A program made the position numbers and the translations under genes. The notes under the pieces are model-generated. The model worked only from the letters and a program-made list of their open reading frames with translations. It was not told where the DNA came from and made no database searches. 64,000 bases of DNA from Aurantiacibacter atlanticus (GTDB taxonomy: Bacteria > Pseudomonadota > Alphaproteobacteria > Sphingomonadales > Sphingomonadaceae). This document shows positions 11,770 to 16,957 of the stretch, piece by piece (position 1 is the stretch's first letter; each line of letters begins with the position of its first letter). The stretch spans positions 1,488,001 through 1,552,000 of the forward strand of contig NZ_CP011310.1 in assembly GCF_001077815.2 (NCBI RefSeq). The letters run 5' to 3'.

Positions 11770-13865
11770 TCAGAAGCTGAATCCTGCACCAGCGCTGAAG
11801 CCGCCTTTGCCGTGCGTATCCAGCGTTCCGCCAGCCTTGATGACGCCCTGTCCATCGCTGAACGAGGTCGACATGCCAATCGCAAAAGCGGTTTCTCCGC
11901 GATAGTGACCAACTGCTCCGCCAACCATCATGCGGCCCGTTTCCATCGTTTGCGGAATTCCGGCCACAGCCATCGCGCCCGCGGTACCAGCGAAGGCTTC
12001 GTCCCGTAGGTTTTCAAGATCGAACGACATGGCGCTTAAACTGTCACTCAGGATCGAAAAGCGTTGGTCTGTGTAAGTCATGGAATCCGCCAGCACGTCA
12101 CTCAGTCCCGCTTGGAGTTGGCCGAGATTGACAGCGTCATTGGCGAGGGTGCCCGAAGCGACATTGTGCAATTGCACCGCCTGTCCGGAGTTGATGCCGA
12201 CCAGTGTTACATCCTGCGTCACCGTGCCGCCATTGCTGAGCGTGGGAGAATCCGGATCTGAATATTGCACTGCGACCACAGTGCTTCCCTGCAAATTTAG
12301 GCTGACGGCTGTGATATCAGCAGTATTCTGGTCGATATCACTTCTATTCATCGCCACAGCGTCATTTGTCGCCGCCAATTGCGCACCATTAACGGCATCG
12401 GTTGAGCTGGCTGACAACGTTCCCGCCGCCACATTGGTGACACGGACCGGGTCCGGCGTAGCGCCGAAGAAAGCCGCCGTATTTGTCGGGACCGTGCTGG
12501 GGGTGAAGCCATCTGCATCTGAAACGTAACCAACTGGCACATTGTCGACCTGTGCCTGCACCTCTGTGATGAAGGTGGCATTATTGGTCACCTGAGTATC
12601 AAGATTGGCAACGTCGCCCTCAACCGTGGTCACGCGGCCATCCAGCGTGGTGATATCGCCCTCGGTAATTGCCAGTCGCCCGTCGAGAGAAGCAATATCG
12701 CCTTCATTGACAGTGACCCGGCCGTCTATGCTGGCGATATCGCCTTCGTTCACCGTTACACGACCATCCAGATTCGCAATATCGCCCTCATTCACCGTCA
12801 CCCGGTCATCAAGGTCATCGATATTCGCCTGTTGCCCGCCGATCTGTGTTGACAGATTCGAGATGGCGGTGGTGTTGGATGCGATGTTGGTTTCGTTCAC
12901 GCCAACACGCCCGTCCAGATCAGCCACAGCTTCATTGGTGGCGAAAAGCTGCGCGCCATTTACGGCATCGGTAGACGTGGCGGACAAAGCACCGTTCGCC
13001 ACATTCGTGATTGTGGTTCCACCTGCACCGTCCAGGGTGATGGTGTCATATGACGTGCCATCATATTGCACAGCAAAATCCTGCAGGTCAGAAATGTCAG
13101 ATGTATTGGTCGCGACATCGGTCTGAAGGCCGCCAATGGCAGCGCCGTTTGCGTCCACCGCGACATTTGTCGCAGCGAGCTGGTTGCCGGTAACTGCATC
13201 GGTTGAACCGGACGCAACCGTCCCATCGGCAAGGTTTGTAACGGTGGTTCCGCCTGTGCCTGCCAAGGTAACTACGTCTTGCGTAGCGCTGTCATATTGC
13301 ACAGCATCGGCAACCGAAGCATTCACGGAATTGATGGCAGCCTGAACCTGGCCTACAGTGGCCGCATCATTATCGTCGGAACCGGGTGCTACATTCGTGA
13401 TCTGGCGATAAGCGCCTGCCGATCCTACCGAAAATGAGCCCACGGAATCTTGCGTTCCCGAAAGGAAGTTTGCCGTATAGCCAGCTTGCGGTCCACGATC
13501 GGCCAGCGATCCGGCACCCAGTGCAACGCTGTTTGCGGCAGTGACGGAAGCACCTGAGCCTATGGCGATCGCTCCACCTGCGCCTACTGAAGTTGTCGCG
13601 CCATTGCCAAACGCAATGGCATCGATTTCACCCGCCGAAGCAGCAGTACCATCGCCCAAGCCCGTTATCTGATTGCCACCGATTGAAAGGCCGGCAGCAT
13701 TGTTGAGCGCGTAGCCATCTGAAGTCAGATTACAATCGGATGGGCCGACAAGATTGCCGTCGGTATCGATCAATTGCAGTGAAATAGGATCACCCGCCGC
13801 TATACCTGCCAGGATGTCATCGACTTCCAGATCCACATCGGTGATGTTGAGCAAAGGAGGCAAGA
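11770..13865 (-). pseudogene. Trimeric autotransporter adhesin (YadA-like), main part, separated from its start by an IS
   Basis: About 697 codons of a trimeric autotransporter. In order: left-handed YadA-like head repeats (AIAFGNGATTSVGAGGAIAIG, SVALGAGSLADRG), several neck/stalk modules of the type TDAVNGAQLFATN, a coiled-coil stalk of 14-residue repeats, and a C-terminal YadA membrane anchor of about 100 residues (TYTDQRFSILSDSL to GGFSAGAGFSF, ending in Phe). The open frame now begins right at the IS3 insertion with no signal peptide or ribosome-binding site, so it cannot be exported as such. The start and signal peptide are on the other side of the insertion at 16488-16726. Joining the two sides with one AAGA copy gives an uninterrupted 777-codon frame counted from the GTG at 16729 (776 from the preferred ATG). 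No other inactivating mutation is visible. Confidence 0.9.
12600..12812 (-). repeat. Tandem 42-bp repeats encoding the adhesin stalk
   Basis: Five 14-residue units of the form DGRVTVNEGDIANL (variants DDRVTVNEGDIANL, DGRLAITEGDITTL, DGRVTTVEGDVANL) in tandem. Fourteen residues are two heptads, fitting a coiled-coil stalk. At DNA level the units are near-identical in the middle three copies, so copy number could change by slippage or recombination. Confidence 0.85.
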
Positions 13866-13906
13866 TGACGTGACCCCCAGCTTTCCCCCAGCTGGGATTA
13901 GAGCCG
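13866..13906. repeat. IS3-family terminal inverted repeat (OrfB end)
   Basis: Begins TGACGTGACCCCCAGC and contains GGGATTAGAGCC. The first 13 bases are identical to the inverted other end. The target duplication AAGA lies immediately outside at 13862-13865. Confidence 0.93.
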
Positions 13907-14809
13907 GGCGGTTGTTTTGCGCATCAGCGCGGTTGAAGCAATGGGCTGCGTAGCGGAGCCCGTAGGGCGTAGCGAAGCAGGCCATTGCTTATCCAGTTCA
14001 GCGGCGAACGCCGCCGGTGTTGCGTAACCGAGAGACGAGTGTGGTCGCTCCCGATTGTAGTCTTCGACCCAGGCCGCGATCTCGACACGGGCATGGGCCA
14101 TACTCAAGAACAGCGTCTCGTTGAGCAGTTCGTCCCGCATCCGGCCATTGAAGCTCTCGACATAGCCATTCTGCATCGGCCTTCCGGGCGCGATGTAATG
14201 CCACTCCACGCCGACCTCGCCGCACCATGCCAGCACAGCGTTGCTGGTGAGCTCGGTGCCATTGTCGCTGACGATCATGCCTGGCTTGCCGCGCTGTTCG
14301 ATCAGTGCGGTCAGCTCGCGAACGACACGGCGACCAGAGATCGAGGTGTCCGGCACCGCTGCCAGGCACTCCCGGGTCACGTCATCGACCACGTTGAGCA
14401 CCCGGAACCGTCTTCCCGAAGCCATCTGGTCGTGAACAAAGTCCAGGCTCCAGCGCTGGTTCGGCAGCGCCAGAACCGGAGCAGGTGCCCTTGTGCCAAC
14501 AGCACGCCTGCGGCTACGTCGTCGCCTGACCGCCAAGCCTTCCTCACGGTAGAGCCTCTGGGTCTTCTTGCGGTTGATCATGATCCCCTCCCGGCGCAGC
14601 AGGATATGCAGACGGCGATAGCCGAACCGGCGACGCTGGTTGGCCAGCTCGCGCAGCTTCTCACGCAGATCGACGTCATCGTCCCGGGTGGAACGGTAAC
14701 GCACGCTCTTGCGATCAGCATCGATGACACGGCACGCCCGCCGCTCGCTCATCCCATGGCACGCCTGGAGATGAGCAACAGCTTCCCGCTGCGCGGCGGG
14801 CGTCAAAAC
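13898..14809 (-). pseudogene. IS3-family transposase OrfB (DDE integrase part), cut off from OrfA
   Basis: About 303 codons encoding the catalytic half of an IS3/IS407-type transposase. It has the HTH_21-like start ([35 protein letters not shown]), then an rve integrase core with the DDE residues in [24 protein letters not shown] and the [16 protein letters not shown] segment. The open frame runs further upstream to 14962, but that extension is antisense IS1111 sequence and not part of the protein. Joined to OrfA at the IS1111 target site the frame is continuous (see findings), so this half was separated by the nested insertion and is probably not expressed as a functional transposase. Confidence 0.92.
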
Positions 14810-14816
14810 TAATGGG

Positions 14817-14832
14817 ATGACCCGCCCTGTCC
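14817..14832 (+). repeat. IS1111-type subterminal inverted repeat, left
   Basis: ATGACCCGCCCTGTCC, the exact inverted copy of 16143-16158. The similarity continues loosely with TTCCATGCA on this side and ATGCA on the other. Confidence 0.9.
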
Positions 14833-14869
14833 TTCCATGCACATTCGGCGGACTGAGAAGGAGGTAATT

Positions 14870-15922
14870 ATGAGCATACGCAACCAACCAAGAGATGCAG
14901 CCGTCTTCGGCATCGACATTGGCAAAACAGTCTTTCACGTTGTCGGCCTCGATGCGGCCCATGCACCGATCCAGAAGGCGACATTCAGGCGGGAGACGTT
15001 GCTGCAGTTTTTCGAACGCGCGTCGCCGGTTCTGGTCGGGATGGAAGCATGCCCCGGTTCGCAGTGGCTGGCGCGCAAGCTGCTAGGGATGGGGCACACA
15101 GTTAGGATCGTGCCGGCACAATTCGTGAAGCCCTTCGTAAAGTCGAACAAGAACGACATCATCGACGCGGAAGCCATTGCGGAAGCCGTCACTAGGCCGA
15201 CGATGCGCTTCGTAGAGATAAGGACACCGGAGCAGATCGACCTGCAAGCACTCCACCGGGTGCGAGACCGGATGATCGCCCATCGAACGAGGCTGATCAG
15301 CCAGATGCGCGCCTTCTGTCTCGAGTATGGTATCGCGATCCATCAGGGCGCAGGCAAGTTCAAGGCCGAGATACCGCGCGTGCTTGCGGATGAGACCAAC
15401 GAGCTCACCCCTTCGATGCGCCGGATCCTGACGGAGGTTCACGGCGAGATGATGGAACTCGAACAGCGCATCACAGCCATGAACCACGAGATCGAAGCCA
15501 TCGCCGCGCGCAGCGATACCGCACGGCGCCTGATGACTGTGCCGGGCATCGGACCGCTGGCCTCGACCGCTCTGCTGGCGGCGGCAGGGTCGGGACGTCA
15601 GTTCCGCAGGGCACGTGATCTCGCTGCCTGGCTCGGTCTAGTGCCGCGCGAACACTCGACCGGCGGGAAGACTAAGCTGCTTGGCATCAGCAAGCGCGGC
15701 AATAAATACCTGCGAAGGATGATCGTCCATGGTGCTCGATCCTGTGTTACACATCTCGATAGAAGCAGGGACCGCTTGGGCCCATGGCTCGACGGGCTTG
15801 AGAGCAGGATGCACAAGAACAAGGTCACGGTCGCCCTGGCTGCCAAGATCGCTCGCGTTGTCTGGGTGATTCTGACCAAGCCGGGCGCCACCTACGAGCG
15901 GCGCGTTCCAGCGTTCGGCTGA
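14870..15922 (+). CDS. IS110-family (IS1111 subgroup) transposase
   Basis: A 350-residue DEDD transposase. The N-terminal RuvC-like domain begins [17 protein letters not shown] (first acidic residue in DIGK), with [14 protein letters not shown] and [13 protein letters not shown] supplying the further acidic residues. The C-terminal transposase_20 domain has the motif [16 protein letters not shown] and the conserved Ser region [30 protein letters not shown]. The start at 14870 follows a perfect AAGGAGG by six bases. It is full length and intact, so this copy may still be active. IS110-family enzymes use an RNA guide encoded in the element's non-coding end; here the long non-coding end is downstream. 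Confidence 0.95.
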
Positions 15923-16142
15923 ACGGCGCCGCCACCAACTGCGAGGTTCGTAAGAGTGATGACGAGACAGTGGACCAGCGCATCGTAAGCCCCGTCAAAA
16001 AAGCGGGCAGAAAGCCCGAAGCATTTATCTGGGAACGAGGCGCGCGGATCTCATCAAGGCCTGGCCGCAACAGCGGCCCACTCGCGAGAGGCCGGATACA
16101 TTTGTGCAGACTGGCACCGTCAACACCAATCGACCCTTGCAT
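15923..16142 (+). ncRNA. Candidate bridge/seekRNA region of the IS1111-type element
   Basis: About 220 nt between the transposase stop and the right inverted repeat, with no gene. In IS1111-type elements this end is known to encode the targeting RNA. It contains CGTCAAAA at 15993-16000, identical to the bases immediately left of the insertion (14801-14808), followed by a hairpin CGGGC-AGAAA-GCCCG at 16004-16018. This is what a target-guide loop would look like. RNA limits and structure are not determined; only the match and the hairpin are seen directly. Confidence 0.5.
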
Positions 16143-16158
16143 GGACAGGGCGGGTCAT
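16143..16158 (+). repeat. IS1111-type subterminal inverted repeat, right
   Basis: GGACAGGGCGGGTCAT, the exact reverse complement of 14817-14832. It supplies the stop codon that now ends OrfA of the host IS. Confidence 0.9.
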
Positions 16159-16160
16159 AC

Positions 16161-16421
16161 ATTTTTTGCCAGAAGATCCTTCAACGCCGCCTTGTCCAGC
16201 ATCGCATCGGCCAGCAAACGCTTCAGCTTCGCGTTCTCGCTCTCCAGCTCCTTCAGCCGCCGGGCATCGGACACTTCCATCCCGCCATACTTCGACTTCC
16301 AGTTGTAGATCGTCGCTTCAGATACACCGTGCCGACGGGCAAGGTCAGCGGTCTTGGCTCCCGCCTCCGCTTCCTTCAGCACGCCAATGATCTGCTCTTC
16401 TGAAAACCTCGTTCTCTTCAT
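16161..16421 (-). pseudogene. IS3-family transposase OrfA (HTH part), cut off from OrfB
   Basis: 87 codons of the DNA-binding half of the IS3-family transposase. It starts MKRTRFSEEQIIGVLKEAEA, with the helix-turn-helix ARRHGVSEATIYNWKSKYGG and a leucine-zipper-like segment RLKELESENAKLKRLLAD. The current reading frame ends at 16155, where a stop is supplied by the inserted IS1111 repeat. In the uninterrupted element the frame would run on through LLAKNV into [10 protein letters not shown] of OrfB. Confidence 0.92.
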
Positions 16422-16443
16422 CTCGTCCGTCCTTCTGTCAGGG

Positions 16444-16487
16444 CCGGACTCTAATCCAACTTGGAGGAAAATCAGGGGGTCACGTCA
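16444..16487. repeat. IS3-family terminal inverted repeat (OrfA end)
   Basis: Read inwards from 16487 it begins TGACGTGACCCCCTGATT and contains GGATTAGAGTCC. It matches the other end exactly over 13 bases and partly beyond. The target duplication AAGA follows at 16488-16491. Confidence 0.93.
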
Positions 16488-16726
16488 AAGACAACCGATA
16501 CGGATAGCAAGTCGTCAACCAGATTTTCTACGCCGCTGGCAACGGGCACAACGGCCTGGCCGACAATATCTGTGATCGCCGAATTCTGAAGCCGTACGCC
16601 GGTACACACATCGACCACTGGTTGAAGCGCTTGAGCATGGACCGGAGCTGTGAAGGCAGCGCCTTGCAAAGTAGCCAACGCAACGGAAGCGCACAGAGTA
16701 TAGGTAATATTCTTACGAGTTGTCAT
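16488..16726 (-). pseudogene. Trimeric autotransporter adhesin, N-terminal fragment with signal peptide
   Basis: The true start of the adhesin. It begins MTTRKNITYTLCASVALATL and has a signal peptide ending near AFTAPVHAQA, then VVDVCTGVRLQNSAITDIVGQ and DDLLSVSVV, where the IS3 element enters. The ATG at 16726 is preferred over the GTG at 16729 because GGAGAG lies seven bases upstream of it. Transcription and export signals are intact, but the reading frame enters IS sequence and stops at 16472, leaving an exported stump of about 84 residues. The fragment is in frame with 11770-13861 once the insertion is removed. Confidence 0.9.
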
Positions 16727-16957
16727 CACGATTCTCTCCCATTTTTTTTTCGTGGAAGCCCTGTGGTGACAGTGAATAGAAAATTAATTGTAAACGAATT
16801 TCAAAAATCTCGGCGTTATTCGCGGCTTGTGAGAGATACTTGCGAAAGAAACCGATATTCGCTCTAGAGCATTGATTGATTTGTTCTAGCTTTGGGACGC
16901 ACCATGCCTTTCGCCATCCAGCCGACTCGAAGGTCTCCGCTGCCTTTTGACTAGCGC

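Follow-up and report, generated by a model that had tools for sequence, protein, structure and literature searches.

The window, a stretch of 64,000 nucleotides from Aurantiacibacter atlanticus (contig NZ_CP011310.1), contains an IS3-family element that is itself interrupted by an insertion sequence of the IS1111 type. The interrupted IS3 is bounded by a 4-bp duplication, AAGA, at 13862-13865 and 16488-16491, and it parts the signal-peptide-like start of a gene for a YadA-like trimeric autotransporter adhesin from the stalk and anchor part; the adhesin gene is regarded as broken because the IS3 sits between its two parts. The features of the locus are as follows.

11770-13863 and 16488-16729, minus strand: fragments of the YadA-like adhesin gene (from domains, the AAGA duplication and, for the signal-peptide part, inspection by eye)
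13866-14809, minus strand: OrfB half of the interrupted IS3-family element (rve and HTH_21 domains; IS3 ends)
14810-16161, plus strand: the inserted element, an insertion sequence of the IS1111 type with 1352 bp (its borders follow from IS3 copies that lack it and from a second target site)
14810-14832, plus strand: left end, a 7-bp extension TAATGGG and the 16-bp subterminal repeat ATGACCCGCCCTGTCC
14870-15922, plus strand: DEDD transposase, 350 aa (Pfam, NCBIfam, PDB); a longer frame from 14837 is also open
16137-16161, plus strand: right part of a putative circle-junction promoter, TTGCAT, 17 bp, then CA joined to the left-end bases TAAT (14810-14813), with 8 of the 12 consensus positions matching
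16143-16161, plus strand: right end, the 16-bp subterminal repeat and a 3-bp extension ACA
16162-16487, minus strand: OrfA half of the interrupted IS3-family element (HTH_Tnp_1; IS3 ends)

Comparison with nine intact copies of this IS3 in the same genome shows that the left flank ends in CGTCAAAAC at 14809 and that the inserted element begins at 14810. In the sense of the IS3, the element was inserted at GGCAAAAAA^GTTTTGACG, and the insertion splits the A6G heptamer between orfA and orfB (AAAAAA^G). The A6G heptamer is the -1 frameshift site of IS3 elements, and orfB of the window IS3 lies in the -1 frame of orfA. The slippery OrfA/OrfB region of IS3-family elements, which the sequence-only reading had named as the target, is thus the site that was entered. 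Nine of the 11 occurrences of the motif HMAYTTTTTTG in the genome are the intact IS3 copies, so a guide of such length would find IS3 copies.

Ends, transposase, and genomic copies of the element

The subterminal inverted repeats of 16 bp are perfect, with extensions of 7 bp on the left and 3 bp on the right, a layout described for the IS1111 family. A longer non-coding region downstream of tnp is usual for the family, and the window element has 239 non-coding nucleotides past the transposase stop codon versus 60 ahead of the start. In the transposase, Pfam finds DEDD_Tnp_IS110 and Transposase_20 (a RuvC-type N-terminal and a Transposase_20 C-terminal domain), the NCBIfam model 'IS110 family RNA-guided transposase' is passed with 334 bits, and the C-terminal part matches the ISCro4 and IS621 transposases of the PDB; the D-E-D-D residues and a GL-P----S(t)G motif are visible in the translation by eye. 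No target duplication accompanies the element, and its joined flanks are found exactly in eight of the nine intact IS3 copies. By sequence, the element is assigned to the IS1111 family. A weak match of 14870-15919 to the NCBI model of the TIGR-Tas endonuclease (20.7 bits, with a cut-off of 100) was also observed.

The genome holds four copies of the element, three in one IS3-family element type and one in a different IS3. The type that was hit in the window has 12 copies as counted by the OrfA domain, 3 occupied and 9 intact. In the three composites the IS3 halves are identical and the IS3 ends intact, and each has a 4-bp duplication of its own (CAAA, AAGA, CCGC). The fourth copy, L004, is byte-identical to the window copy over its 1352 bp and is inserted at GGGCGTTACCAT^TTTTTGATG in an IS3 that differs from the window IS3 (64.9% OrfB identity). 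Two IS3 types have hence been entered by byte-identical elements in the same genome. A second IS3-type group of this genome (G000 C1), with seven places carrying PF01527 at 43-47 bits, has none of the four copies inside.

The predicted guide RNA

The features that bear on the guide are the following, all of them in the non-coding region downstream of the transposase gene except for the first, which lies in the left flank.

14801-14808, plus strand: CGTCAAAA of the left flank, judged coincidental
15957-16110, plus strand: region of the predicted guide RNA, of which 154 nt were folded (structure conserved in 27 relatives; single-sequence fold)
15996-16002, plus strand: putative T guide CAAAAAA, the complement of right flank TTTTTTG, identical in letters to the slippery run of IS3
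16004-16018, plus strand: hairpin CGGGC-AGAAA-GCCCG between the T and B guides (helix 5)
16019-16027, plus strand: putative B guide AAGCATTTA, which reads in the orientation of the left flank and core
16050-16054, plus strand: possible donor guide CTCAT, a potential pairing partner, with one G-U, of ATGGG in the left end (from conservation, the pairing by eye)
16096-16101, plus strand: possible donor guide ATACAT, with the letters of the predicted circle junction ATACA^T

The consensus structure, derived from 27 of 39 prepared stretches, has 46 pairs, and 96.5% of its cells pair; sliding the partners against each other cuts pairing to 30-41%. Both sides have changed in 21 pairs, whereas shuffled alignments give a mean of 8.3 and none in 500 reached as many. 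The fold of the single sequence is ordinary (z -1.08; 22 of 200 shuffles as good), and a search of 14700-16300 against Rfam at E up to 1 gave zero matches. The internal loop that separates helices 4 and 5 carries the two guides, one on each strand, in the order T and then B, which is the published order of IS1111 seekRNAs; those are described as carrying first the complement of the top strand of the target and then that of the bottom strand. The covarying RNA, together with the agreement of guides and targets described below, supports the earlier proposal that the 3' non-coding end carries a guide. A second internal loop holds CTCAT and ATACAT, and pairing of these with the element ends may be possible. 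Over 78 elements the right end and this motif combine as ACA with ATACA in 68, ACG with ATACG in 7, and ATA with ATACA in 1, with none in 2, a distribution that amounts to essentially one clade-level change.

Insertion sites and guides of the relatives

Relatives were collected from GTDB genomes, other genomes and plasmids; of 55 plasmid records with at least 60% identity, 21 and later 6 more were used. The ends were called by script, and tblastn served to detect IS3 OrfA and OrfB in the flanks. Ends stayed unpaired in 31 of 86, 10 of 51 and 1 of 21 loci, which were truncated, degraded, at a contig edge or differently built. A tree of 90 transposases was made by a quick method, omitting 8 duplicates, rows of less than 40% identity, and rows of 240 residues or fewer. 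A pattern scan of IMG/VR matched 15 stretches, none of them encoding a relative.

Two supported branches of 46 and 5 rows form a group of 51 elements, of which 45 are bordered by OrfB on the left and by OrfA on the right. Four others have one IS3 half (L016, L023, L037, L070) and two have neither (L014, L017), while outside the two branches none of 39 rows has both halves and a single one (L076) has one. These 45 of 51 rows lie at the IS3 junctions where the sequence-only reading expected the relatives, and they support its suggestion that the element preys on other insertion sequences. All 45 run antisense to the IS3, an orientation that the test required. The OrfA and OrfB matches begin within 10 bases of the border, with the exception of L163 (29), whose matches are weak, and L164 (25). 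The IS3 prey is diverse, its OrfB identity to that of the window IS3 being 38.8% in L021 and 34.2% in L052. One branch of 54 rows holds both branches as well as L040, L055 and L120, which lie outside IS3, and the 51 elements are on that account treated as a group and not as a demonstrated clade.

In the aligned non-coding regions such a pair of guides flanks a hairpin, as three examples show. L040 sits at TCCAGA^TACAGCACT and carries the guides AGTGCTGTA and CCAGATA; L078 sits at CCCCCC^TTTGCGCCA with TGGCGTAAA and CCCCTTT, and L153 at CATAGC^TTTCGGCG with CGCCGAAA and TAGCTA. When guides and flanks were permuted among elements, the cognate score exceeded the permuted mean in 34 elements (T guide 213 vs 186.5, B guide 180 vs 142.7), in 14 representatives (89 vs 63.6 and 76 vs 51.1) and in 12 divergent elements (75 vs 51.0 and 66 vs 43.0), and 0 of 20000 permutations equalled it in each of the three sets; in this run the stem of L077 was misplaced, which lowers its match. 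Because shared descent inflates permutation counts, guide classes were also counted on the tree, over 50 of the 51 rows (L050 is without a guide region). T guides of the form [CT]GAAA go with the flank TTTCG in 7 of 7 elements, versus 0 of 43 of the remainder, and B guides AG[CT]T with the left flank AG[CT] in 11 of 12 versus 0 of 38, the classes having been picked after viewing the data. On the tree, the T class switches twice, both times in agreement with the flank (sign test p 0.5), and for the B class five of six independent pairs agree, none opposes and one is unchanged (p 0.0625). CGAAA guides with TTTCG targets occur on two separate branches, in L153 and L160 and in L052, L029, L165, L166 and L167, a pattern that looks like repeated redirection to another IS3 type. 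The anticipated covariation of guides with targets is found.

Three rules were then written beforehand and tested on hold-out elements. Out of 69 loci, 40 had been seen or were repeated, 6 were without ends and 2 had less than 52% identity; four of the 21 new ones (L227, L248, L260, L272) were dropped on inspection for wrong or truncated ends. The loci came from six of nine plasmid hits named in advance (H7, H10, H19, H24, H29, H37) and from other genome loci. Of the remaining 17 elements one, L239, is a second copy on a plasmid seen before. Both IS3 halves flank 14 of the 17 and one half flanks 3 (L255, L256, L257). With guides read by eye, the T rule was kept in 17 of 17, with one positive case (L256), and the B rule in 16 of 17, the exception being L270.

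The agreement is not uniform. In the window copy the T guide is good and the B guide fits its own left flank poorly (score 3; by eye 2 of 6 positions are Watson-Crick and 4 of 6 with wobble). Ten elements with guides of the CAAAAAA type, six of the first survey and four of the hold-out, are found with a mismatch at TTCTT flanks; either mismatches are tolerated or these insertions were otherwise helped. The T guide of L055 is unfit for its right flank (score 3). L014 has the same guides up to one base and is not in an IS3: its site lies 46 bp behind an open frame of 260 aa, in a terminator-like hairpin followed by a T-run (CCCCCAT^TTTTTTG; L014 2420-2441 and the right flank), and here the target sequence, not IS3 identity, seems to decide. 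The sister group with ACG right ends (L075, L076, L077, L078, L080, L082, L101, L102) occupies varied sites, several with well-matched guides, and may represent natural redirection outside IS3.

These data bear on what exactly is recognised and by what. The sequence-only reading had put forward as the guide an eight-base match in the same sense as the left flank: CGTCAAAA is indeed present at 14801-14808 and again at 15993-16000, with the hairpin beginning three bases past the second occurrence. The exact border lies one base further, at 14809/14810. Exact as this match is, the earlier estimate of its chance probability (well under a few percent) is too low. When the element's non-coding region was shuffled with a first-order Markov model, 554 of 5000 shuffles (11%) matched the 20-bp left flank on the same strand over 8 or more bases, and 1379 of 5000 (28%) did so when both flanks and both strands were allowed. 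At the site of the byte-identical L004 the longest same-strand match between left flank and guide region is 3 bases, and of 17 elements compared only the window copy reaches 8, the remaining 16 having 2-5. Matches to the right flank's complement span 4-9 bases in these elements. That CGTCAAAA itself is the guide is thus largely refuted and hardly credible. CAAAAAA, which shares part of this stretch, is instead complementary to the right flank, and the likely guide for the left flank is found beyond the hairpin, at 16019-16027. Recognition by a protein or by DNA shape, namely a T-run beside a GC-rich stretch, with an incidental likeness to the guides, would agree with TTTTTT being common to many targets and with the hairpin and T-run entered by L014. 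We consider it very unlikely and do not favour it given the permutation scores and the joint switches: L040, L075, L077 and L078 lie at very different sequences with matching guides at the same RNA positions, and guide and flank change together.

The three identical copies could also go back to one insertion, the interrupted IS3 then having been copied in trans by IS3 transposase, which the nine intact IS3 copies could supply. The identical halves, intact IS3 ends and own duplications of all three composites speak for such hitchhiking, yet the fourth copy lies in a different IS3 and the relatives occupy many IS3 types, and we find it unlikely. It can hold for the three identical copies but fails for the overall pattern. 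With intact IS3 ends and a duplication of its own in each composite, both routes of spread are possible for these three, guided insertion into three IS3 copies or transport of one interrupted IS3; the fourth copy requires a separate insertion.

Proposed targeting, known systems, and consequences for the prey

The reading that we prefer is that an IS1111-family element with a seekRNA-type guide targets the IS3 frameshift junction, and on the sequence evidence it is very probably correct. Borders, target, orientation, and the covariation of the RNA and of guides with targets come from the comparisons, and the mechanism proposed from them would run as follows. The downstream non-coding region would encode a seekRNA or bridge RNA that is made, is bound by the DEDD transposase and leads it to the orfA/orfB junction of IS3 elements, with a single orientation that is antisense to the IS3. 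Both short guides would be presented around a hairpin by one internal loop. To the right of the insertion point the T guide CAAAAAA would pair with the top strand; to its left, and over the core, the B guide AAGCAUUUA would pair with the bottom strand. As the letters of the T guide are those of the IS3 slippery run, the element would aim at the very signal that IS3 needs for its OrfAB transposase. Across relatives, the guides shift along with the junction sequence of the IS3 entered.

Several known systems are similar in parts. According to PMC11187229, ISEc11, ISKpn4, ISPst6 and ISPa11, IS1111 elements with demonstrated seekRNAs, likewise have a DEDD transposase, 7/3 subterminal repeats, a downstream non-coding region, no duplication, one orientation, and two short target matches, top-strand and then bottom-strand complement. 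Their targets differ, being a short linear sequence for ISEc11, attC for ISKpn4 and ISPst6, and REP for ISPa11, as opposed to the IS3 orfA/orfB junction here. ISEc21, described in the same paper, is also RNA-guided with a target within IS3-family elements, but it is of the IS110 type, has an upstream non-coding region and a reversed guide order, and is directed at the codon of the second D of DDE, unlike the window element with its frameshift junction. IS4321 and IS5075 are IS1111 members that are likewise aimed at another mobile element, namely at the terminal inverted repeat of transposons of the Tn21 family. In PMC11208160, the IS621 bridge RNA and those predicted for IS1111 elements similarly have internal loops with target and donor guides; the IS1111 ones are predicted in the right end, whereas the IS621 RNA is in the left end, and the donor loop of the window element is proposed from conservation. 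Within one open-licence library of papers, to which the search was confined, we found no report of the IS3 orfA/orfB junction as a target. If the proposed targeting is true, a natural recombinase guide copies a ribosomal recoding signal, which the prey cannot freely change, and follows that signal across prey types. The several dozen natural guide-target pairs, with defined borders and mismatched cases included, could teach the rules of tolerance and redirection of IS1111 recombinases.

The cut, at AA^N, falls two codons ahead of the usual orfA stop; it leaves OrfA nearly whole and would block the OrfAB fusion. When the flanks of the 45 insertions are joined, 37 have orfB in the -1 frame of orfA and 8 have it in a different frame; in 35 the native orfA stop is 4 bases beyond the border. 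With the insert in place, the length of OrfA is unchanged in 7, greater in 36 and smaller in 2, and the OrfAB fusion would be interrupted in all 45; the interrupted IS3 would presumably no longer be self-mobile. A wider picture, which we offer tentatively and hold to be somewhat doubtful, is that of predator and prey: an IS1111 group would live on the orfA/orfB frameshift signal of IS3 elements, re-evolving its guides as the signal differs (the tree shows at least two changes from TTTTT to TTTCG), while copies making only OrfA may repress the remaining IS3s and intact IS3 ends may carry the insert as a passenger. Seen from the IS3 side, the right end at 16155-16161 reads TGTATGA and supplies an orfA stop at the native place in 7 of the 45, and with ends of the TGTATGGT or similar type OrfA is mostly extended.
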